Assembly (NCBI GenBank): GCA_937873255.1
Contig: CALMVM010000428.1
Span: 1 to 17,311 of the forward strand
Length of the DNA: 17,311 nucleotides
Origin: an uncultured Verrucomicrobiota bacterium
GTDB lineage: Bacteria; Verrucomicrobiota; Verrucomicrobiia; Chthoniobacterales; SZAS-18
Direction: 5' to 3'
Each line of letters opens with the position of its first letter. The first letter of the stretch is position 1. The notes under the pieces were generated by a model, which ran no database searches, had not been told where the DNA came from, and saw only the letters and a program-made list of their open reading frames with translations. This document shows positions 1,738-15,005 of this stretch, piece by piece. A program made the position numbers and the translations under genes.

Positions 1738-2086
1738 GGGAAAGAAACCTCCCCGGACGGGGCACCGGATTTTGGCGGTCCGATCGGAAACAATTCGCGG
1801 TCGCGCCAAAAAAATTGCAGTCAACGCGGGTCAGTCTGGCAGCGAAAGCACGTCGTGGCAGCCGGCCATCCGCGCCGCCGCAACAGAGTAAACCTGCACT
1901 TGATCAACCCATTACAGGGTGCGATATCACCTCGAAAAAAGGCTATGGTCAGAACCCCAAATTGTGCTGGGCGCGTCGGTGGAAAAGGTTAAGCTGCCGT
2001 GGGATATTAGACAACGATGGATCGTCCGGCACCCCGCCTGGGCTCCACGTTGTACAAGCTCAGTGGAATTTAGCGGCGCAGGTCAC
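1738..2086. other. Gap upstream of first WbaZ-like gene
   Basis: No convincing gene lies in these 349 bases. An open frame from 1919 runs into the downstream glycosyltransferase, but its extra 56 residues have no counterpart in the paralogous protein at 8398. The stretch contains the right copy of the 19-bp repeat. A very weak promoter-like pair, TTGATC at 1900-1905 and GATATC 17 bases later, is noted without confidence. Confidence 0.4.
1919..1937 (+). repeat. Right copy of 19-bp imperfect direct repeat
   Basis: GTGCGATATCACCTCGAAA differs from the copy at 233-251 by one base. This copy lies 150 bases before the glycosyltransferase start, outside recognisable coding sequence. Confidence 0.5.
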
Positions 2087-3262
2087 ATGCATCCGGTCAC
2101 ACCAATCGTACATCCGCTGCCTGACAAGGTGGCGATCATCCACGATTGGCTGCCCGTTTACGCCGGGGCCGAACGCGTGTTGGAACAAATCATCAAGATT
2201 TTTCCGCACGCGGAACTTTTCAGCATGGTCGATCTGCTGCCGCCCGACCAGCGAGGCTTCCTGCTCGACAAAAAGGTGAACACGTCGTTTGTCCAGAAGC
2301 TGCCGCGCTGGGCGCGCAATCGTTACCGGGCGTTCCTGCCGCTGATGCCGTACGCGGTCGAGCAGTTCGACTTCTCCGGGTTTCCGTTGGTGATTTCGAG
2401 CAGCTACGCCGTGGCCAAGGGGATCATCACGGGGCCGGACCAACTGCACGTTTGCTATTGCCATTCGCCCGTGCGCTACGCCTGGGACTTGCAGCATCAG
2501 TACCTGCGTGAGGCCAAGCTGGGGGCCACCAGTATCAAAGGGATCATCTCGCGCCTGATTCTCCATTACCTGCGGCTGTGGGACGGAGTAGGCCACCACC
2601 GGGTGGATCGGTTCGTGACCAACTCGCAGTTCGTGCGCAAGCGCCTGCGGAAGTTCTATCGCCGGGATGCATCCGTGGTCTACCCGCCCGTGGACACGGA
2701 ATATTTTACCCCGGGGGGGCGCAAGCAGGAATATTACCTGACGGTCTCGCGCATGGTGCCGTACAAGATGGTCGGCGCGGTGGTGGACGCGTTCGCGCTG
2801 ATGCCCGACAAGGAGTTGCACGTCATCGGGGCCGGCCCGGAATTCAAGAACATCAGCAGCCGCGCCACCCCCAACGTGAAAATGATGGGATACCAGCCCA
2901 ACGATGTGCTGCGGCAAGAAATGCAGGGTGCCCGAGCATTCATCTTTGCCGCGGAGGAGGATTTCGGTATCGTGCCCGTCGAGGCCCAGGCCTGCGGGAC
3001 GCCGGTGATCGCCTTCGGGCGCGGCGGGGCGAAGGAAACCGTGATCCCGGGACGGACCGGCATCTTTTTTTACGAACAGAGTGCCTCGGGAATCCGCGCG
3101 GCCGTCGAGGCATTCGAAGGTTCGCTCCATCGCTTCGACAGCCAGGCGGTCCGCGAGCATGCCGAGCAGTTTTCCTGCTTGCGGTTCCGTGAGCAGATGG
3201 AATGGGAGGTGCGCCGGTACTGGAACGAGTTCGCGCACAATTACCCGACCGTGGTGCGTTGA
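2087..3262 (+). CDS. GT4 glycosyltransferase, WbaZ-like (copy A)
   Basis: A 391-residue GT-B fold glycosyltransferase of family GT4, close to the WbaZ-type mannosyltransferases of O-antigen synthesis. It would add a sugar from a nucleotide donor to a lipid-linked oligosaccharide at the cytoplasmic face of the inner membrane. The N-terminal domain starts with VAIIHDWLPVYAGAERVLEQ and carries the typical YCHSPVRYAWDL segment. The C-terminal donor domain has the GT4 EX7E signature (E291 and E299 in EEDFGIVPVEAQACGTPVI) and a GRTGIFF motif. ATG 2087 was chosen because it puts the first beta strand about 14 residues in; no strong ribosome binding site is seen. It is paralogous to the protein at 8398 over its whole length. 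Its 3' end faces the GT4 gene on the other strand with only 28 bases between. Sugar and linkage cannot be read from the sequence. Confidence 0.9.
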   Translation: MHPVTPIVHPLPDKVAIIHDWLPVYAGAERVLEQIIKIFPHAELFSMVDLLPPDQRGFLLDKKVNTSFVQKLPRWARNRYRAFLPLMPYAVEQFDFSGFPLVISSSYAVAKGIITGPDQLHVCYCHSPVRYAWDLQHQYLREAKLGATSIKGIISRLILHYLRLWDGVGHHRVDRFVTNSQFVRKRLRKFYRRDASVVYPPVDTEYFTPGGRKQEYYLTVSRMVPYKMVGAVVDAFALMPDKELHVIGAGPEFKNISSRATPNVKMMGYQPNDVLRQEMQGARAFIFAAEEDFGIVPVEAQACGTPVIAFGRGGAKETVIPGRTGIFFYEQSASGIRAAVEAFEGSLHRFDSQAVREHAEQFSCLRFREQMEWEVRRYWNEFAHNYPTVVR

Positions 3263-5489: not shown

Positions 5490-6983
5490 ATGGGTTCTCA
5501 CGACTCTCCGCCCCCGCCGTGGCAGAAGCAATGGATTCATGGAGAAACCTCTCCGTATCCGGTCCTCGCCGCATCGCGCTGGATGCTGCTGGCGATCCTG
5601 GCCGCCGCCCCCTGGGCATACGGGTGCATTCGCTGGTGGGTTATCCCCTGGTTCACGGGCGCGTTGTTGGTGACTTCGGGGCTGTGGCTGGTGGGCCTGG
5701 TGCTGCGCATGCGCAGGACGACCGCTCACTGGGGATTTTGTTGCGCGACATTTTATCTACTGGCGCACGGGTGGCTGCTCGTCGCCAACGCCGGCTATCG
5801 CTATGATCGCGCGCAGCTTCAGTTCGTGGAGGTCAAACCCCTGCTGGCCGCGTGGCTGCCGGGTGCCATTGATACGGCGATGGCGTTGCCGATGATGTTG
5901 AGGATCACCGGCCTGCTCGGGGTGGCGTGGATGGCGGCCGACGCGGCCCGGCACGCCCAATGGCGGCGGAACCTGTTCTGGACCGGCGTCGTCGGCAGCA
6001 CGCTGTTGATCGTCTATGGATTCTGCCAACGGGTTTCCCCGGTTCCGCTGCTGTTCTGGGAGCAGAAGGACCTGGAGCACAACCTGTTCGCAACCTATTA
6101 TTATCACGGAAACGCCAGTGCATTCATGAATCTCCTGCTGCCTTTCGCCTTCGGAGCGGCCGTGTACGGATTTCACCAGAAACAAAGGCCGATCCTGCGC
6201 GCCTTCGGGGTGGCCGCCTTGTTCCTGAACGTCGCCGCTGCGGTAGCGATTGCCTCCAAGGCCGGTCAGATCGTGACCGCGCTGCTTCTGGTGGCGTTGG
6301 TCCTCGCCTACCGGCGCGAACTGCTCCCATCGGCGGAAAACAAAAGGACGGCGCGCCGGCCGACCTTCTGGCTGACGACCACGCTGGTAGTGCTTTTGTG
6401 CGTGGGCGGGCTCGCGTTCACCTCCGATACCGCCCAACGGCGCTGGCAAGAAGTGCCGCGTTTGTTGGAGCCGGATCACAATGCGCGCCTCCTGGCCTAC
6501 CGCGCCTGTCTGCGCATGCTGCCCGACGCCGGGCTATGGGGCATCGGCGCCGACAACTTCCGCGTCGCGTTTCCGCATTACACCTATGGCTTGCCCGAAG
6601 AGATCATGGGCCTCTGGGAATACGCGCACGAGGATTATCTCCAGACGGTCATCGAATGGGGATGGATCGGCGCGGCCGGATGGGGCTTCCTGTTTTTCGG
6701 CGCGTGCTGGCGGGGCTGGCGTGGACTGCGAGCGAGAGCTGCCACGGCACCGCTCTCGCTGGAGGAGGTGATCCTGCCTCGCTCGGCCCTGCTCGCCCTT
6801 GGCGGGGTCGCCCTCCATGCCACCGTCGATTACCCGCTGCAAATCGGTTCAATCGAACTCTACATCATGGTATTCGCGGGATTGCTCTGGCATCAGCCCG
6901 ACCGGGCGCGTCAAAGAACGGACGAAACCGCATCCCCAAGCCAGCGGTCGGTATCCAACCCGATCCTGCAAAAGCTGCGGTAG
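5490..6983 (+). CDS. O-antigen ligase/polymerase family (Wzy_C) membrane protein
   Basis: A 497-residue inner-membrane protein with about ten or more hydrophobic segments, the first at WMLLAILAAAPWAYGCIRWW. The family includes O-antigen ligases (WaaL) and Wzy polymerases, which join undecaprenyl-linked sugars at the periplasmic face. Supporting segments are HNLFATYYYHGNASAFMN from residue 197, the loop EPDHNARLLAYRACLRMLPD with WGIGADNFR, the family motif HEDYLQTVIEWGWIG at 380, and HATVDYPLQI at 443. The large periplasmic loop between the later helices fits the Wzy_C domain. The start has AGGAG 11 bases upstream. In a locus with Wza- and Wzc-like genes, polymerase is more likely than ligase. 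The stop is TAG and lies 11 bases from the convergent small gene. Confidence 0.85.
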   Translation: MGSHDSPPPPWQKQWIHGETSPYPVLAASRWMLLAILAAAPWAYGCIRWWVIPWFTGALLVTSGLWLVGLVLRMRRTTAHWGFCCATFYLLAHGWLLVANAGYRYDRAQLQFVEVKPLLAAWLPGAIDTAMALPMMLRITGLLGVAWMAADAARHAQWRRNLFWTGVVGSTLLIVYGFCQRVSPVPLLFWEQKDLEHNLFATYYYHGNASAFMNLLLPFAFGAAVYGFHQKQRPILRAFGVAALFLNVAAAVAIASKAGQIVTALLLVALVLAYRRELLPSAENKRTARRPTFWLTTTLVVLLCVGGLAFTSDTAQRRWQEVPRLLEPDHNARLLAYRACLRMLPDAGLWGIGADNFRVAFPHYTYGLPEEIMGLWEYAHEDYLQTVIEWGWIGAAGWGFLFFGACWRGWRGLRARAATAPLSLEEVILPRSALLALGGVALHATVDYPLQIGSIELYIMVFAGLLWHQPDRARQRTDETASPSQRSVSNPILQKLR

Positions 6984-6994
6984 ATGCCGGGCCT

Positions 6995-7303
6995 TTATCG
7001 CGCTGACGGAGCCTGCGCGGACAGATCGCCGGCGGGCAGCGTCAAGTACGCATAATCGTAAGTAAAAGTCGTGGGATCAACGACATAACATCCACGCCAC
7101 ACCGCGATGCTACCGGCACCCTGGGAAATCCCGGCCGACGGCTGCCCCGCGGCCACACCAGCGGGCGGAGGATTGGCGTCGGTTTCGGAGAAACCGATCA
7201 GGTTGGCTTGATTCGCAGGGGCCGTCGGTGGCTTGCCCGCCTGAGCCAAACCGCAGGATCCGAAGACCAACAAGGCCGAGACAACCGATGCGCGCATTTT
7301 CAT
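6995..7303 (-). CDS. Small secreted protein of unknown function
   Basis: About 102 residues starting MKMRASVVSALLVFGSCG, a typical signal peptide with likely cleavage after LAQA. The mature part is small, Pro/Ala/Gly-rich at first (GKPPTAPANQAN, PPPAGVAAGQPSAG), then ends in a compact segment, GSIAVWRGCYVVDPTTFTY with YAYLTLPAGDL. It holds one cysteine after the signal region. The frame is open to 7381, but the extra residues are only Arg/Lys-rich, so ATG 7303 or 7297 is preferred. No family is recognised. It sits tail to tail with the Wzy-like gene, and its 5' side shares the long gap with the GbsR-type regulator, so the two may be divergently controlled. Confidence 0.6.
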   Translation of the reverse strand: MKMRASVVSALLVFGSCGLAQAGKPPTAPANQANLIGFSETDANPPPAGVAAGQPSAGISQGAGSIAVWRGCYVVDPTTFTYDYAYLTLPAGDLSAQAPSAR

Positions 7304-7689
7304 AAACGCTTGGATCTTAGAGCGTCGGCGCGTCCTGGCAAGGAAAATCTTTCGCATGCGCCGCGAGGAGAAAATCGGCACGCCAATGACGAGCCCCTGA
7401 TGCTACGGAGCAAAAGTTCCCTTCGGCAGCGATCCCGCCCTCTTTGAAAAAGCTCCCGGCAAAAATAATTGACGTTTTGGGATGGACAAACGGTTTCGAC
7501 CCTTGTAATTCCCTGCGCTTCATTCGTTACCATCCATTCGTCTCCGGTGCGAACCAAAGGGTTTCATGCAGATCACAAAGGTAGTGACTGCTTCTTGCAC
7601 GAAGGTTGTCACCCCGCAAAGGGGGGACAACCAAGTGCGGCAGCTTTGCGTCAAACACTTCAGAAGGAACTGAACTCACCCGAACCTGT
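7304..7689. promoter_or_regulatory. 386-bp divergent leader region upstream of the GbsR-type gene
   Basis: No gene is supported here. The gap separates the leftward small secreted gene from the rightward regulator and should contain both promoters. A TTGACG hexamer at 7469-7474 could be a -35 box for the regulator, but no good -10 follows at 16-18 bases. A strong hairpin at 7597-7638 is listed separately. Confidence 0.45.
7597..7638 (+). promoter_or_regulatory. Strong inverted repeat / hairpin upstream of the GbsR-type gene
   Basis: The arms GGTTGTCACCCC (7604-7615) and GGGGGGACAACC (7621-7632) pair over 12 bases with one mismatch around a GCAAA loop. After a small internal loop the stem extends with GCAC (7597-7600) and GTGC (7635-7638). 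It ends 51 bases before the regulator start. No U-tract follows, so it is not a standard terminator. It could be a repressor operator, for example for autoregulation, or an RNA leader structure. Confidence 0.5.
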
Positions 7690-8397: not shown

Positions 8398-9675
8398 ATG
8401 AATACACGCGCGTCCGGAAAGTTATCTGCGGCTTTCGAATCACTGGCAAGCCCTGGCAGGCCCAAGGTGGCCATCGTGCACGATTGGCTGGCCAAATACG
8501 GCGGCCCGGAGCGCGTTCTCGAGCAGATCATCCAGATTTTCCCGGACGCGGACCTCTTTAGCATGGTCGATCTGATCCCGGCGGAACGTCGCGGGTTCCT
8601 GATGAACAAGCCGGTCGCCACGTCCTTCATCCAGAAGCTGCCGAAGTGGGCTCGCCAACGCTTCCTGGCGTTCCTGCCGCTGATGCCGTGCGCGGTCGAG
8701 CAGATCGACCTGTCCGCTTACGATCTCATCATCTCCAGCGGCCATTCGATCGCCAAGGGGGTGATCACCGGCCCGAACCAGTTGCACATCAGCTATTGCC
8801 ACTCGCCGATGCGCTACGCCTGGGACCTGCAAAGCCTCTATCTCAAGGAAGCGAACCTGTATTCCAGTGCACGGGGGCTGATCACGAAGATCCTGCTGCA
8901 TTACTTCCGGCTCTGGGACGCGCAAAGCCAGCAGCGCGTGGACCATCTCATCACCAACTCACAGTTCGTCCGGCGGCGGATCGAGAAAATCTACCGGCGC
9001 AGGGCCGATGTGGTGTACCCACCCGTCGATGTGAAGCGGTTCACCTGCCACCCTGTCAAAGAGGAATACTACCTCGTCGCCGGACACATGGTGCCCTACA
9101 AGCGCATCGGCATGGTGGTCGATGCCTTTGCCAAGATGCCGAACCGGCGGCTCCGGGTCGTCGGCCATGGGCCGGAGTTCGAGTCGATCCGGCGGCGGGC
9201 CACGCCGAACGTGCGATTGCTCGGCTACCAACCCAACGCCGTGTTGCGCGAGGAAATGCAGCGCGCGAAAGCCCTGGTTTTCGCGGGCGAGGAGGATTTC
9301 GGTATCCTGCCGGTCGAAGCGCAGGCCTGCGGGACGCCGGTCATCGCCTACAGTCGCGGCGGCCTGAAGGAAACGGTCGATCCCGGCCGCACGGGCGTGT
9401 TTTTCCACGAGCAGACTCCCGAAGCGATCTGCGAGGCGATCAACCAGTTCGAGGCCGTGCCGGTCTCTTTCGGTCCACGGGAGATTCGCCAGCACGTCGA
9501 GCAATTTTCGACCGAAAATTTCCGGCGGGCCTTCTTGACCCTGGTCGCCCGGCACTGGCGGGAGTTCACCGGTGGGGACGAGCTGGAGGTGAACGCGAAA
9601 ATACCGGACCCGACCGACTTCGTCGACCGGATTCTGTCCGGTGAGACAAACGCGGTGGCCACGTCCACGCGATGA
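8398..9675 (+). CDS. GT4 glycosyltransferase, WbaZ-like (copy B)
   Basis: A 425-residue GT4 enzyme closely similar to copy A at 2087: VAIVHDWLAKYGGPERVLEQ, a MVDLIPAERRGFL segment, YCHSPMRYAWDL, and the donor-site EX7E pair E299/E307 in EEDFGILPVEAQACGTPVI. The N-terminus has about 22 extra residues before the first strand, and the C-terminus about 30 extra (ELEVNAKIPDPTDFVD), which copy A lacks. A ribosome binding site AGGGA lies nine bases before the ATG, in an AT-rich leader. Its likely role is adding a sugar, possibly mannose, to the EPS repeat unit in the cytoplasm. The two copies may add successive sugars or be a duplication that later diverged in acceptor. Confidence 0.9.
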   Translation: MNTRASGKLSAAFESLASPGRPKVAIVHDWLAKYGGPERVLEQIIQIFPDADLFSMVDLIPAERRGFLMNKPVATSFIQKLPKWARQRFLAFLPLMPCAVEQIDLSAYDLIISSGHSIAKGVITGPNQLHISYCHSPMRYAWDLQSLYLKEANLYSSARGLITKILLHYFRLWDAQSQQRVDHLITNSQFVRRRIEKIYRRRADVVYPPVDVKRFTCHPVKEEYYLVAGHMVPYKRIGMVVDAFAKMPNRRLRVVGHGPEFESIRRRATPNVRLLGYQPNAVLREEMQRAKALVFAGEEDFGILPVEAQACGTPVIAYSRGGLKETVDPGRTGVFFHEQTPEAICEAINQFEAVPVSFGPREIRQHVEQFSTENFRRAFLTLVARHWREFTGGDELEVNAKIPDPTDFVDRILSGETNAVATSTR

Positions 9676-9746: not shown

Positions 9747-10295
9747 TCAAAGACCTTCGCGCGACAGGGGATGGCGCCTGGGCGGCAGGAGATCCCCCGG
9801 ATGAATTTCGGCTTCGATCTGTCTGACCAGAAAGCTGACGAGAATCCGCAAGCGTTCGCGGCCGGTGAGGATTTGCGTGACCACGGCTTCCAAACCGCGC
9901 AGAACCCCGTCGATGATCTCCACTTCGGTGCCGACCGCAATGCCCGGCGTAATCGTGACGAGTTGGTTGTCGTCGACATACTGCCGCAGGCGTTGGATGA
10001 CCTCATCCTCGATGGTGACGTATCGGTCGCTGAATCGCAGGATGTCCGCGACTCCCGGGCTGTACCGGATCTCCTTGTGACGGGTTTCAAGGACGAACCG
10101 CGCGAACAGGTAGCCGGGAAACAAGGCTTCCGTGAACCATTTCGCGCCCGTGCGTGTCTTGCGGTTGATGCGCAGTTGCGGACAGAACACTTCCACGTCG
10201 TCCATCTGCCGAAGATGAACCGCCGCGATCCGCTCGTGTTTCTGCCGGCTGCGAATGCAGTACCAGCGGGGCGGGGTTAACGCAACGTCGTCCAT
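9747..10295 (-). CDS. NusG-family antiterminator paralogue (RfaH/UpxY/LoaP-like)
   Basis: 182 residues with the two NusG domains. The NGN domain spans about residues 10-105 (RWYCIRSRQKHERIAAVHLR, PQLRINRKTRTGAKW, then the hallmark LFPGYLFARF and RYSPGVADIL). A linker leads to a KOW domain at about 118-170 (GTEVEIIDGVLRGLEAVV). NusG paralogues bind RNA polymerase and suppress pausing and termination in long operons, often for capsule or O-antigen genes. It is not the housekeeping nusG, judging by its EPS context and lack of the secE/rplK neighbourhood. No ribosome binding site is seen before ATG 10295. It is divergent from the export operon, 142 bases away, the most likely target. Recognition of an ops-like site is possible, but none could be identified. 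Confidence 0.87.
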   Translation of the reverse strand: MDDVALTPPRWYCIRSRQKHERIAAVHLRQMDDVEVFCPQLRINRKTRTGAKWFTEALFPGYLFARFVLETRHKEIRYSPGVADILRFSDRYVTIEDEVIQRLRQYVDDNQLVTITPGIAVGTEVEIIDGVLRGLEAVVTQILTGRERLRILVSFLVRQIEAEIHPGDLLPPRRHPLSREGL

Positions 10296-10437: not shown

Positions 10438-11959
10438 ATGCATGCACCAATTTTTGTTCGCCCCCTCAAAAGGGTGTGCCTCGTCGGGATCGTCGGGCTG
10501 GTGTGCTTGGCGTTGAGGCAAATCTCGGCCGACCCGCCGAGCACGCCCGCCCCCGCGTCGGACCCGGAGGCCGCGCCCGCGCCCGACGGCCTTGCCCCCG
10601 CCGGCGGTCTTCCCCCTGCCATCCGGGTCCGATCCGCTTCCAGCCAGTTCCGGAAACAACGGCTCGCCGGAGGCCGCCCGATTGTTCAACGACAACGCCG
10701 CCGGAGCGGCGCAGACCCAGACTGAGGAACAACGCCGCGCGTCGGCGCTCAACCAGGCGCAGAACCTCCAGGCGGCGTCCGATATCTATACCAGCGCGTC
10801 CTACCAGCGCGCGGAGTCGCTGGGCGAGGCGTTGTTCAACGGGATCGGCGGCGTGCCGCAGGCGCTTAGCCCCCTTTACCTAGCTGCGGGATCGAAGGAA
10901 TCGCAGGGTTTCAAGCTCGGCCCCTTCACGCTGCATCCCATCCTGAGCGCCGGGCTCAACTACGGGTCCACCAGCGGGAGAGGGGCAAGTGGCGTGAATG
11001 GTTTCTACGGCTCCGTGTCGCCGGCCTTCAGCCTGACGCTGGGTGATCCCGTGACCGGCCGCATGCTCACCGCGCAATACACGGGCAGCCTGACTTTCGG
11101 CGACACCGACAGCAACCACGCGCGGTACGATCAGTCGCTTTTTCTCAACGGCACGTTGAACTTCGTCAAACTCAACCTCGGCTTCGGCCTGGACTTCTCG
11201 CAGCTCACCAGCAGCGACCGCGACTTCGGCGGTCAGGCCGTCGACCGCGAGATCATCGGCCTGTCCTTTTACGGCAGCTATCTCTTCAGCGAGAAGACCA
11301 ACGTCAGCGCCTCGGTGCAGGTGCCGATCCGCCTCTACAGCCGGGGCGATAGCTCGGAGGGGGTGAACGGCACCGTGTTCGCCAATTACGTCTACAGCCC
11401 CCTGACGACCTTTGGCCTGGGCATCTCCGTGGGCACGGTGGGAGTCGAGCGAAACGACTTTCAGGTTTACGAACAAATCCTGACACGGCTGACCTACATC
11501 GCCACCCAGAAGCTGAGCTTTAACGGGACGCTCGGCTACGAATTCCGGCAGACGGAATCACGCGATGTGACCAATCCGGTCTTCGGATTCGGGCTGAATC
11601 TGGCCATCCGCGACGGCACGAACCTTTCGTTGAACGCCGAGCGGCGTGTCTTGAATTCCGCCTCGAACCTCGGCGCGAACTACACCGACACGACGGTTTT
11701 GTTGTCGCTGGGACAGCGACTGGGGACGCTTGTCCAACTGGTCGCCACGGCCGGGTACGAGAACTCCGCCTACCAGGGAGTCACCACCGGAGTGTCCAGC
11801 AACCGGAACGACAACCAGTTGGTCTTGCAGACAGCCCTGACGTACCGCTTCAAGGAACGCTGGCTCGTCTCGGAAATCATTTCCTATTCCAAGGACTTCT
11901 CGAATCAGAACTCCTTCCAGGCGTTTCAGAACTCGTTGCAACTCACCTATGTATTTTGA
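10438..11959 (+). CDS. Outer-membrane beta-barrel protein of the EPS locus, with apparent +1 frameshift
   Basis: The signal peptide (MHAPIFVRPLKRVCLVGIVG, cleavage probably after ISA) and an Ala/Pro-rich start of the mature protein are read from 10438. The rest (about 440 residues from PLPSGSDPLPASSGN on) is read one frame later and is open only from about 10517, with TTG 10592 as its first possible start. The frames join most simply at the C-run 10613-10617 or 10594-10598, where one C fewer gives a continuous protein of about 506 residues. The mature part has many alternating amphipathic beta strands (such as FYGSVSPAFSLTLGD, GLSFYGSYLFSEKTN) and ends in LQLTYVF, the C-terminal aromatic signature of barrels inserted by BamA. 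It probably helps polymer cross the outer membrane or forms a porin. The 3' end overlaps the OPX gene by 11 bases. Confidence 0.75.
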
Positions 11960-12608
11960 AGCAACCCGGTCCCGGAGGCTCCTGACCGCGATCTGCCTCC
12001 TTACCTGGATGGTGGTGAGCCCCGCGCGGGGTCAAACCCGGACTCCTTCGTCGGATCGACCTGACCCGAGAGCCGCGTCCACGGAGAGCGGGTCCTCTCC
12101 ACGTTCGGCCAATTACCAGCTGATGGCGGGAGACATGGTGTCGGTGCGCGTATTCAGAGAAACCTCGCTGGATACCAGCCAGCGGGTCGCCAAGGACGGC
12201 ACGATCAATTATCCGCTGCTCGGGTTCGTGCGGATCGCGGGGAAGACGACGAACGAGGCCGCAACCCACATCGCCGCCTTGCTGGAGAAAGACTACATCG
12301 TCCACCCGCAGGTGTCTGTGTCCATCTTGAACTACGTCAAGCAAAAGTTTACCGTGCTAGGCTGTATATCCAGTGCGGGGAGTTACGAGATTCCAGACGA
12401 GCAGACCATCGACCTCTTGGCCGCCATCGCGAAGGCAGGCGGATTCACGCGCTTGGCGGATCCGGCGAAGATCACGGTGCGACGCCTCACAGACGGACAG
12501 GAGCAAATCTTCAAGGTCGATGGCAAGAAGCTGATGAACGATCGGACCAGCCCCCGATTCGTGGTCCAGCCAAACGACACGATCAGCGTCGGGGAGAGAA
12601 TTTTTTGA
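11949..12608 (+). CDS. Short Wza/GumB-like polysaccharide export (OPX) protein
   Basis: 219 residues. A signal peptide (RRLLTAICLLTWMVVSPARG) is followed by a linker, the poly-export (PES) domain from about residue 55 (NYQLMAGDMVSVRVFRE to YIVHPQVSVSIL), then one SLBB domain from about 131 (KQKFTVLG, SSAGSYEIPDEQTIDLLAAI, KAGGFTRL). It ends with VVQPNDTISVGERIF. OPX proteins form a periplasmic ring that passes EPS to the outer membrane. Compared with Wza (about 360 residues with a C-terminal membrane helix) it is short, like GumB, and no outer-membrane helix is visible. No clear lipobox is seen: the only early cysteine, in LTAIC, lacks the usual preceding small residues. It starts 11 bases before the barrel gene ends, so the two are probably translated together. 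Confidence 0.88.
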   Translation: MYFEATRSRRLLTAICLLTWMVVSPARGQTRTPSSDRPDPRAASTESGSSPRSANYQLMAGDMVSVRVFRETSLDTSQRVAKDGTINYPLLGFVRIAGKTTNEAATHIAALLEKDYIVHPQVSVSILNYVKQKFTVLGCISSAGSYEIPDEQTIDLLAAIAKAGGFTRLADPAKITVRRLTDGQEQIFKVDGKKLMNDRTSPRFVVQPNDTISVGERIF

Positions 12609-12746: not shown

Positions 12747-15005
12747 ATGGCCGCAATCACTCAAGGCAACAAAAGCGCATCCGACTCGTTGGTGACGGCG
12801 GACGACACCGGTGAGTCGTCGCTGGACATCCAGGGGATTCTGCATCTTCTGCTGCATCGCAGTTGGATCATTCTTTTACTCGCGTTAATCGGAGGCATGG
12901 CGGCCGAGGCGTATGTGCGGCAATTGCCCGTTTTGTACCAATCCACGACGGTCATCGAGGTGGATACGAGAGAGCGCAAGCCCGTCAACATCGACGACAA
13001 GAACGATCAAAACTTGCAGGACCCCGAAGTGGTGGAAACGATCTTGGAAAACTTCCGCCACCGCGCCCTGATGGAACGGGTAGCCAAGGCGCTCGATCTG
13101 GCCCACGATCCGAAATTCCTCGGCCCGACGCCGCCCCCGACGGCCACCGCCAGCGATTCCATCGTGGCAACGTTGCTGGCTTCGTCCTACGTCGCTCTCC
13201 AGCCCAGGACGCGGTTGGTCAACGTCGTCTTCGTGCACCGCGACCCGGCCACTGCGCAGAAGATCGCCGATGCGCTGGTCGAGCAATTTTTGCAACAAAA
13301 CATCGACCAGAAAATCCGGGCCACGGAATCTCAGAACGATGTCCTGCGGCAAAAGGCGGACGAGTTGAAAGCAAAGCTGACCCGCTCCGAAGAAGCGCTC
13401 CAGGAGTACAAGCAAAAACTCCAGACCGTGTCGGTCGAGGAACAGCGCAATCTTGTCGAGTTGAAACTCAAGGCCCTGAACGCCGATCTCTCTGCGGCGA
13501 ACACTGAGCGCATCACCCTCGAAGCCGATCAGCAGACCGTCAAGAACGCCGGCGATTCCGTCCCGCAACTCTTCGGCATTACCAGCATCGCGCAGGACCC
13601 GCAAGTGGCTGCGGCGCGCCAGCAGGTGAAAACGGCCGAGGACGAACTGGCCTCGCTCCTGCAACGCTATCACGACAAGTGGCCGGCGGTCATCGAACAG
13701 CGGGCCCAGATAGAAAACGCCCGACGCAATCTCAAGGAAGCGGTGTTGTCCGCTCCTTCGCGTCTGACCGCGCGCTACAAGGCGGCGGTGGCCAAGGAAC
13801 AAAACGTGAAGTACGCGGTGGCCGAAGAGGAAAAGGCGATGCTGGACCTCGAGAGCAAGATGATCCCCTACCGCGCGCTGCTGCGGGAAAACGAGTCTGA
13901 TCGGTCTTTGTTTGAAACGGTGTTGCAGCAGTTGAAGCAAAACACGCTGGCCCTCGGCGTCCAGCCAGCCAGCTTTCATGTGGTGGAACCGGCCACCCCG
14001 GCCAAGGTGGTGGCTGGAAAACGGCTCCTCATCGTCATCGGCGCGGGCCTCGCCATCGCGCTGCTGTCCGCAGCCGGCTTCGTCGGAATCTTCCTTGTCA
14101 ACTCGTCCATCCGCACCGTGGACGACGCCGAGAGCACGCTCGGGTTGCCCGTGTTGGCGGCGGTCTCGACCATGCGCAAGCCACGTGCCCCCGGCCAGGT
14201 CCTGTCACTGGTCCATGACCCCGGCTCACCCATCGCCGAGAGTTTTCGCACCTTGCGCTCGGCGATTCTTCTGCTTGGACGGGAGGAAAAAGGACATGTT
14301 ATCCTCTTCACGAGCGCTCTGGCCGGCGAAGGCAAGAGCTTCGTGGCCGCCAACACCGCCGTGGCATTCGCCCAGCAGGATTTGAAGACCATCTTGGTGG
14401 AGGCCGACCTGCGCAAGCCCGCGCTCTCGAAGCAAATCTTCGCGTTGGGAGATCGTTTGCCCGGAATCGCGGACTACATGGTCGGGAAGCCCGCGCCGAT
14501 CCAGTCAACCTCGATCAAGAATTTGTACGTGATGCCTGCCGGCTCACGTGTGCCGAACCCGGCCGAGTTGCTCAGCAACTCTCATTTCAATGAGATCACC
14601 GAGTGGTTGAAACACGATTTCGACCGCATCGTGATCGATACGGCGCCGCTGAATGTGGTGAGCGACACCCTGAACATTGTCTCCTGCGCTTCCATCATCT
14701 GCCTGGTCGTCCGCAGCAATCTGACGCCACGCAAGGCCGTTCGACGGGCGATTGAGTTGCTCCGACGCGCAAAGGCACAGCCCGATGGCATTGTCCTGAA
14801 CGGTTTGCCGCGCTCGAGCGGGATCGGGTATCATTATTACTATTCGAGCGGGTCGAAATACGGCGGCGATGAGACGTACGGCAGTTCGTATTCTCACGAC
14901 GATCAGAAAAGCGAGCAGGGATCTTCCCGCGCCACCGGTGGAGAAGACCGCCTCGAACGCGGGAAGAACAGGCGTGCGGAGCAGGGTGTCAAGATCGGAG
15001 ACTGA
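12747..15005 (+). CDS. Wzc-like polysaccharide co-polymerase with tyrosine autokinase (BY-kinase) domain
   Basis: 752 residues. The Wzz domain begins with a membrane helix at about 38-55 (SWIILLLALIGGMAAEAYV). A long periplasmic coiled-coil region follows (LKAKLTRSEEALQEYKQKLQ), then a second helix at about 427-450 (LLIVIGAGLAIALLSAAGF). The cytoplasmic kinase has Walker A ALAGEGKS (K530), Walker A' ILVEADLRKP at 549, where Glu replaces the usual first Asp, and Walker B IVIDTAPLNVVSD near 628. The tyrosine cluster at about 695-716 (YHYYYSSGSKYGG, then DETYGSSY) is the usual autophosphorylation tail, here followed by a 35-residue charged tail. Such proteins set chain length and couple polymerisation to export through the OPX ring. 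No Wzb-like phosphatase is in the window. The ATG 12747 has no clear ribosome binding site. Confidence 0.92.
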   Translation: MAAITQGNKSASDSLVTADDTGESSLDIQGILHLLLHRSWIILLLALIGGMAAEAYVRQLPVLYQSTTVIEVDTRERKPVNIDDKNDQNLQDPEVVETILENFRHRALMERVAKALDLAHDPKFLGPTPPPTATASDSIVATLLASSYVALQPRTRLVNVVFVHRDPATAQKIADALVEQFLQQNIDQKIRATESQNDVLRQKADELKAKLTRSEEALQEYKQKLQTVSVEEQRNLVELKLKALNADLSAANTERITLEADQQTVKNAGDSVPQLFGITSIAQDPQVAAARQQVKTAEDELASLLQRYHDKWPAVIEQRAQIENARRNLKEAVLSAPSRLTARYKAAVAKEQNVKYAVAEEEKAMLDLESKMIPYRALLRENESDRSLFETVLQQLKQNTLALGVQPASFHVVEPATPAKVVAGKRLLIVIGAGLAIALLSAAGFVGIFLVNSSIRTVDDAESTLGLPVLAAVSTMRKPRAPGQVLSLVHDPGSPIAESFRTLRSAILLLGREEKGHVILFTSALAGEGKSFVAANTAVAFAQQDLKTILVEADLRKPALSKQIFALGDRLPGIADYMVGKPAPIQSTSIKNLYVMPAGSRVPNPAELLSNSHFNEITEWLKHDFDRIVIDTAPLNVVSDTLNIVSCASIICLVVRSNLTPRKAVRRAIELLRRAKAQPDGIVLNGLPRSSGIGYHYYYSSGSKYGGDETYGSSYSHDDQKSEQGSSRATGGEDRLERGKNRRAEQGVKIGD

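Follow-up and report, generated by a model that had tools for sequence, protein, structure and literature searches.

The principle of the composite polysaccharide exporter, in which an OPX protein is coupled to a separate outer-membrane β-barrel, has already been published (PMC9601211, PMC9603273). In the EpsX/EpsY (WzpX/WzaX) system of Myxococcus xanthus a short OPX protein consisting of D1 and D2, without D4, adjoins an 18-stranded AlgE-like barrel, and a polysaccharide co-polymerase (PCP) is encoded in the cluster (PMC9601211, PMC9603273). A 2022 survey of 6,607 genomes by Schwabe et al. recorded barrel-coupled short OPX proteins in 10 phyla; such short proteins typically have either a barrel partner (453/1,230) or a C-terminal helix (535/1,230) (PMC9601211). 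The window considered here is a stretch of 17,311 nucleotides from an uncultured Verrucomicrobiota bacterium, one contig (G000:C428) of a 642-contig draft genome; its adjoining β-barrel and short OPX genes very probably encode a two-part outer-membrane exporter of a sugar polymer, of the composite translocon type.

The main text of the survey does not name the Verrucomicrobia, and its Fig. 4 legend gives PVC as a superphylum (PMC9601211). A literature search that was not exhaustive, with PMC13343947 and PMC3791409 among the papers, found no description of an OPX/barrel pair in Verrucomicrobia. The cps1 locus of Akkermansia contains a Wza gene of 783 bp, disruption of which gives a strain without a capsule; the word "barrel" does not occur in that paper (PMC13343947). 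An earlier note on this DNA had proposed that the locus would extend the architecture to this lineage, which is overstated given the 10 phyla already surveyed in 2022 (PMC9601211).

The OPX open reading frame (ORF; 11949-12608, forward strand) encodes 219 aa with a Poly_export domain (E 7.9e-22) and one SLBB domain by Pfam; with D1 and D2 only, it lies within the 280 aa taken as the upper limit for a short OPX protein. No 19-residue hydropathy window of the chain exceeds 1.3. In the AlphaFold2 (AF2) model the last strand of D2 spans residues 211-216 and the chain stops three residues later; no helix follows, and D3 and the D4 outer-membrane helix of class-1 Wza are absent. The only cysteines are residues 16 and 139; Cys16 sits within the N-terminal hydrophobic stretch, a putative signal peptide as judged by eye, and its surroundings do not fit a lipobox. 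The short chain without a C-terminal membrane helix or clear lipobox, as read from the sequence beforehand, is therefore borne out, and neither a lipidation site nor a membrane helix, either of which the earlier note listed as evidence against a two-part exporter, was found. Almost 50% of class-3 OPX proteins are predicted lipoproteins and about 30% carry Sec/SPI signals (Saidi et al., PMC9603273); a lipobox is therefore frequent in this class without being obligatory, and its absence here is variation within the known range. The best PDB match by both structure and sequence is WzaB (9n9a, 36% identity), and Wza is also among the structural matches, over D1-D2. Residue 139 (window 12363-12365) is a Cys after a conserved Gly in the second domain; in alignment A2 this position is Gln in 25 of 27 rows and Glu in one.

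Directly upstream, the barrel ORF (10592-11959, forward strand; 455 aa) scores to PF10082 (BBP2_2) over residues 325-452 with E 6.3e-6 and 25.7 bits against a gathering cut-off of 23.7. Its predicted structure, in which the earlier note had asked for the strands to be counted, has 18 of them at residues 112-454, and the chain ends in LQLTYVF, the aromatic terminus noticed before. The ORF overlaps the OPX ATG by 11 bp (11949-11959), as had been described; an 18-stranded barrel is thereby encoded within five genes of the OPX gene, namely next to it, in a frame that is interrupted in this contig. A PDB sequence search with the barrel profile gave no match up to E 0.1, and a scan of the genome_contigs collection with the barrel alignment gave none.

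The pairing was followed through 57 genomes: that of the window plus 56 others from its genus, family or order. OPX matches are present in 51 of them, and barrel alignment A1 finds a match in 26. From 131 OPX matches the 30 weakest were left out and a truncated OPX at G000:C503 (L103) was dropped. In the close set (38 OPX loci of relatives scoring above 100 bits) a barrel lies immediately upstream on the same strand in 27, which affirms the conservation that the earlier note had asked about; in 3 more it is no further than 3.3 kb away, 2 loci run into a contig end and 6 lack a barrel. Five of the six come from a single supported clade of seven lipoprotein OPX proteins, in whose two remaining members a barrel gene follows the PCP gene; the sixth (G004) has no barrel in 18 kb, yet one lies about 17.6 kb upstream on the same contig. 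Among 61 weaker OPX loci, two of them from the window's genome, 29 have a barrel upstream; in 15 the barrel is more distant on that side (about 1.8-2.5 kb) and the PCP gene intervenes, 4 run into a contig end and 13 lack a barrel. Because R2 and R3, the barrel profiles, derive from ORFs at the OPX loci themselves, the whole-genome barrel search is the less biased direction. A pattern scan with the smaller OPX alignment A3 returned 23 titled loci, of which 7 are contigs already counted and one (L126) is not OPX; all 15 that remain have a barrel within 1.1 kb upstream of the OPX gene. Most of these titles name Verrucomicrobia (Spartobacteria, Chthoniobacteraceae, Opitutaceae and others); one metagenome-assembled genome each is titled Nitrospiraceae and Betaproteobacteria.

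Three gene orders occur in this bacterial order: barrel-OPX-PCP, barrel-PCP-OPX, and lipoprotein OPX-PCP-barrel (L206, L213, L214-L227, L220, L229). The window's genome has the first two, its further linked loci being C513 (barrel-PCP-OPX) and C638 (barrel-OPX-PCP). L208-L212 are five short lipoprotein OPX proteins of one clade that adjoin a PCP gene and have no barrel match in 14-20 kb. An apparent class of "short barrels" (170-260 aa), lying some 2 kb upstream of certain OPX genes, was discarded as an artefact of where the fetched stretches end; with longer flanks these barrels measure 394-638 aa and the gene order is barrel-PCP-OPX. The composite polysaccharide exporter emerges as a common arrangement in this apparently environmental Verrucomicrobiota order, in three gene orders and often in several copies per genome.

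The barrel gene of the window is broken near its start. A 525-aa homologue that reads through (P0002, 77% identical) matches frame +1 over its residues 1-67 (10438-10611), covering signal peptide and linker, and frame +2 over residues 48-525 (10532-11956, tblastn), covering linker and barrel; the two matches overlap at 10532-10611. The frameshift suspected in the earlier note is confirmed for this contig and may be a contig error or a real lesion; the activity of this copy is consequently uncertain. The features of the locus are as follows.

10438..10611, forward strand: N-terminal segment resembling a signal peptide, and beginning of the barrel protein's proline-rich linker (frame +1; tblastn with P0002 residues 1-67, E 2e-9; inside ORF 10438-10725)
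10517..11959, forward strand: outer-membrane β-barrel with 18 strands at residues 112-454 (455 aa from the first listed start, 10592; frame +2 is open from 10517 onward)
11949..12608, forward strand: short OPX protein, 219 aa, D1 (Poly_export) and D2 (SLBB), without lipobox or D4 helix (Pfam, AF2 model, WzaB 9n9a match)
12747..15005, forward strand: PCP fused to a tyrosine autokinase (Wzz and BY-kinase), 752 aa (above cut-off for both Pfam Wzz and NCBIfam TIGR01007)
5490..6983, forward strand: Wzy/O-antigen ligase-type membrane protein (PF04932, E 1.2e-13)
9747..10295, reverse strand: NusG/RfaH-type antiterminator, divergent from the barrel gene (PF02357, above cut-off)

These lie in a polysaccharide cluster of glycosyltransferases, a PIG-L deacetylase, the Wzy-type protein and the NusG/RfaH-type regulator, followed by the barrel, OPX and PCP-autokinase genes. 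By hydropathy the PCP has two putative membrane segments near 30-57 and 421-455 with about 363 residues between them, and an additional single peak at 637 in the kinase part; an extended periplasmic helical part of the PCP is a feature of composite systems (PMC9601211). The antiterminator matches the RfaH, UpxY and LoaP models below their NCBIfam cut-offs, and its transcription points away from the barrel-OPX-PCP genes. Two family-4 glycosyltransferase genes of the cluster (1919-3262 and 8398-9675) form a paralogous pair with 61% identity over 370 columns, and a 128-aa ORF on the reverse strand (6995-7381) begins with a signal-like stretch and matches no NCBIfam model.

By analogy with published homologous systems, about eight OPX copies would assemble into a ring in the periplasm, above the PCP, with D2 docked under the barrel; a Wzx/Wzy-made polymer would cross the outer membrane through the barrel, which would itself be the pore. 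Lacking a lipid anchor, the ring would depend on the barrel alone to stay at the outer membrane. Lipoboxes were called with a regular-expression rule and hydropathy (L101 was added by eye) in 109 OPX proteins; a further 6 that run into a contig end (2 of the close and 4 of the weaker set) were left out. With a barrel directly upstream, 39 of 43 have no lipobox (close set 25/27, titled loci 13/15, window 1/1); across all linked gene orders and the weaker set this holds for 81 of 90 barrel-linked proteins. A barrel lies within 3.3 kb for 81 of the 90 OPX proteins without a lipobox versus 9 of the 19 with one (Fisher p 9e-5 on raw counts, relatedness ignored); with relatedness counted, the association finds no support in an independent-pairs test on the tree (median p 1), and the contrast largely follows clades. 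An apparent near-clean split in the close, titled and window set, linked without and unlinked with a lipobox (Fisher p 4.6e-6), became weaker with longer flanks: two lipoprotein OPX proteins have a barrel after the PCP gene, and the tree test lends no independent support. Most barrel-linked OPX proteins of this lineage have no lipid anchor; a barrel-anchored variant of the composite translocon, in which recruitment and retention of the ring would fall to the barrel alone and lipidated OPX proteins would occur preferentially at loci without a linked barrel, is a tentative and rather doubtful proposal. The many pairs without a lipobox provide material for testing barrel-only anchoring.

The architecture is supported by the fold, the WzaB match and the conserved gene pairing, and the Myxococcus-type plan of the earlier note, partly supported, is very likely right; the six close relatives with an OPX gene and no nearby barrel (stretches of 14-20 kb) depart from it. 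They count against the two-part exporter together with several other results: 13 of the 61 weaker OPX loci have no barrel within 3.3 kb, 5 of 33 barrel matches have no OPX match nearby, and the contig's own barrel gene has a broken frame. The mirror-tree correlation of OPX and barrel distances (43 pairs, r 0.77, without a species-tree control) is what co-inherited partners would give, and adjacency alone can yield the same value. OprD/Occ-type porins are level with AlgE by VIA-align and come first in Foldseek's own ranking, where AlgE is only at rank 26; as they match as well as or above AlgE, the fold does not prove that the barrel exports a sugar polymer. Residues 1-75 of its ORF, mostly at pLDDT below 50, could be a plug; the Wzi lectin is an 18-stranded barrel with a helical plug. 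It is conceivable, if improbable, that the barrel is an accessory surface protein (a Wzi-like lectin or an EpsL-type helper) that retains or shapes the polymer while another protein is the pore; the OPX protein, however, has no membrane-spanning part, so that some pore is needed, and the barrel adjoins it in most close relatives. That the OPX protein itself spans the outer membrane, as Wza and short OPX proteins ending in a helix do, is extremely improbable despite the Wza match over D1-D2, as the three residues after D2 are neither hydrophobic nor helical and short OPX proteins typically have one of the two solutions, barrel or helix (PMC9601211).

Decay of the locus, in which the break is real and the organism makes no functional barrel, is unlikely but more plausible than these two. 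The signal-peptide and barrel parts are in different frames, and barrel homologues P0003, P0006, P0007 and the fragment P0010 likewise have no evident signal peptide as deposited, which may reflect wrong starts, partial genes or similar breaks. Yet the barrel frame runs for 480 codons without a stop, the 77%-identical homologue reads through, the OPX and PCP ORFs are full-length, and small errors are generally plausible in a draft of 642 contigs. The two-part exporter remains the favored account of the locus.

AlgE belongs to a synthase-dependent pathway and is not known to need an OPX partner; the alginate exporter shares 9-11% identity with the barrel in structural alignments. EpsL (TIGR03014), a PEP-CTERM-associated outer membrane protein, shows a weak profile likeness over barrel residues 296-451 (E 1.3e-7, 31 bits against a cut-off of 275), and on this score the barrel is not a member of the EpsL equivalog. 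The closest match of the OPX protein, class-3 WzaB (9n9a), is described with an acylated N-terminal Cys (PMC9601211), a residue arrangement not found here; a literature search found no paper on the 9n9a structure. All but one of 48 myxobacterial OPX proteins are predicted lipoproteins (PMC9601211), whereas the present one lacks a lipobox; the barrel scores to PF10082, whereas homologues of the Myxococcus barrels are reported only in myxobacteria. EpsX/EpsY have been studied at the bench, while the present pair is known from sequence and models; by the features tested, a short D1D2 OPX protein without D4, an adjoining 18-stranded barrel and a PCP in the cluster, it belongs to the published composite translocon kind.
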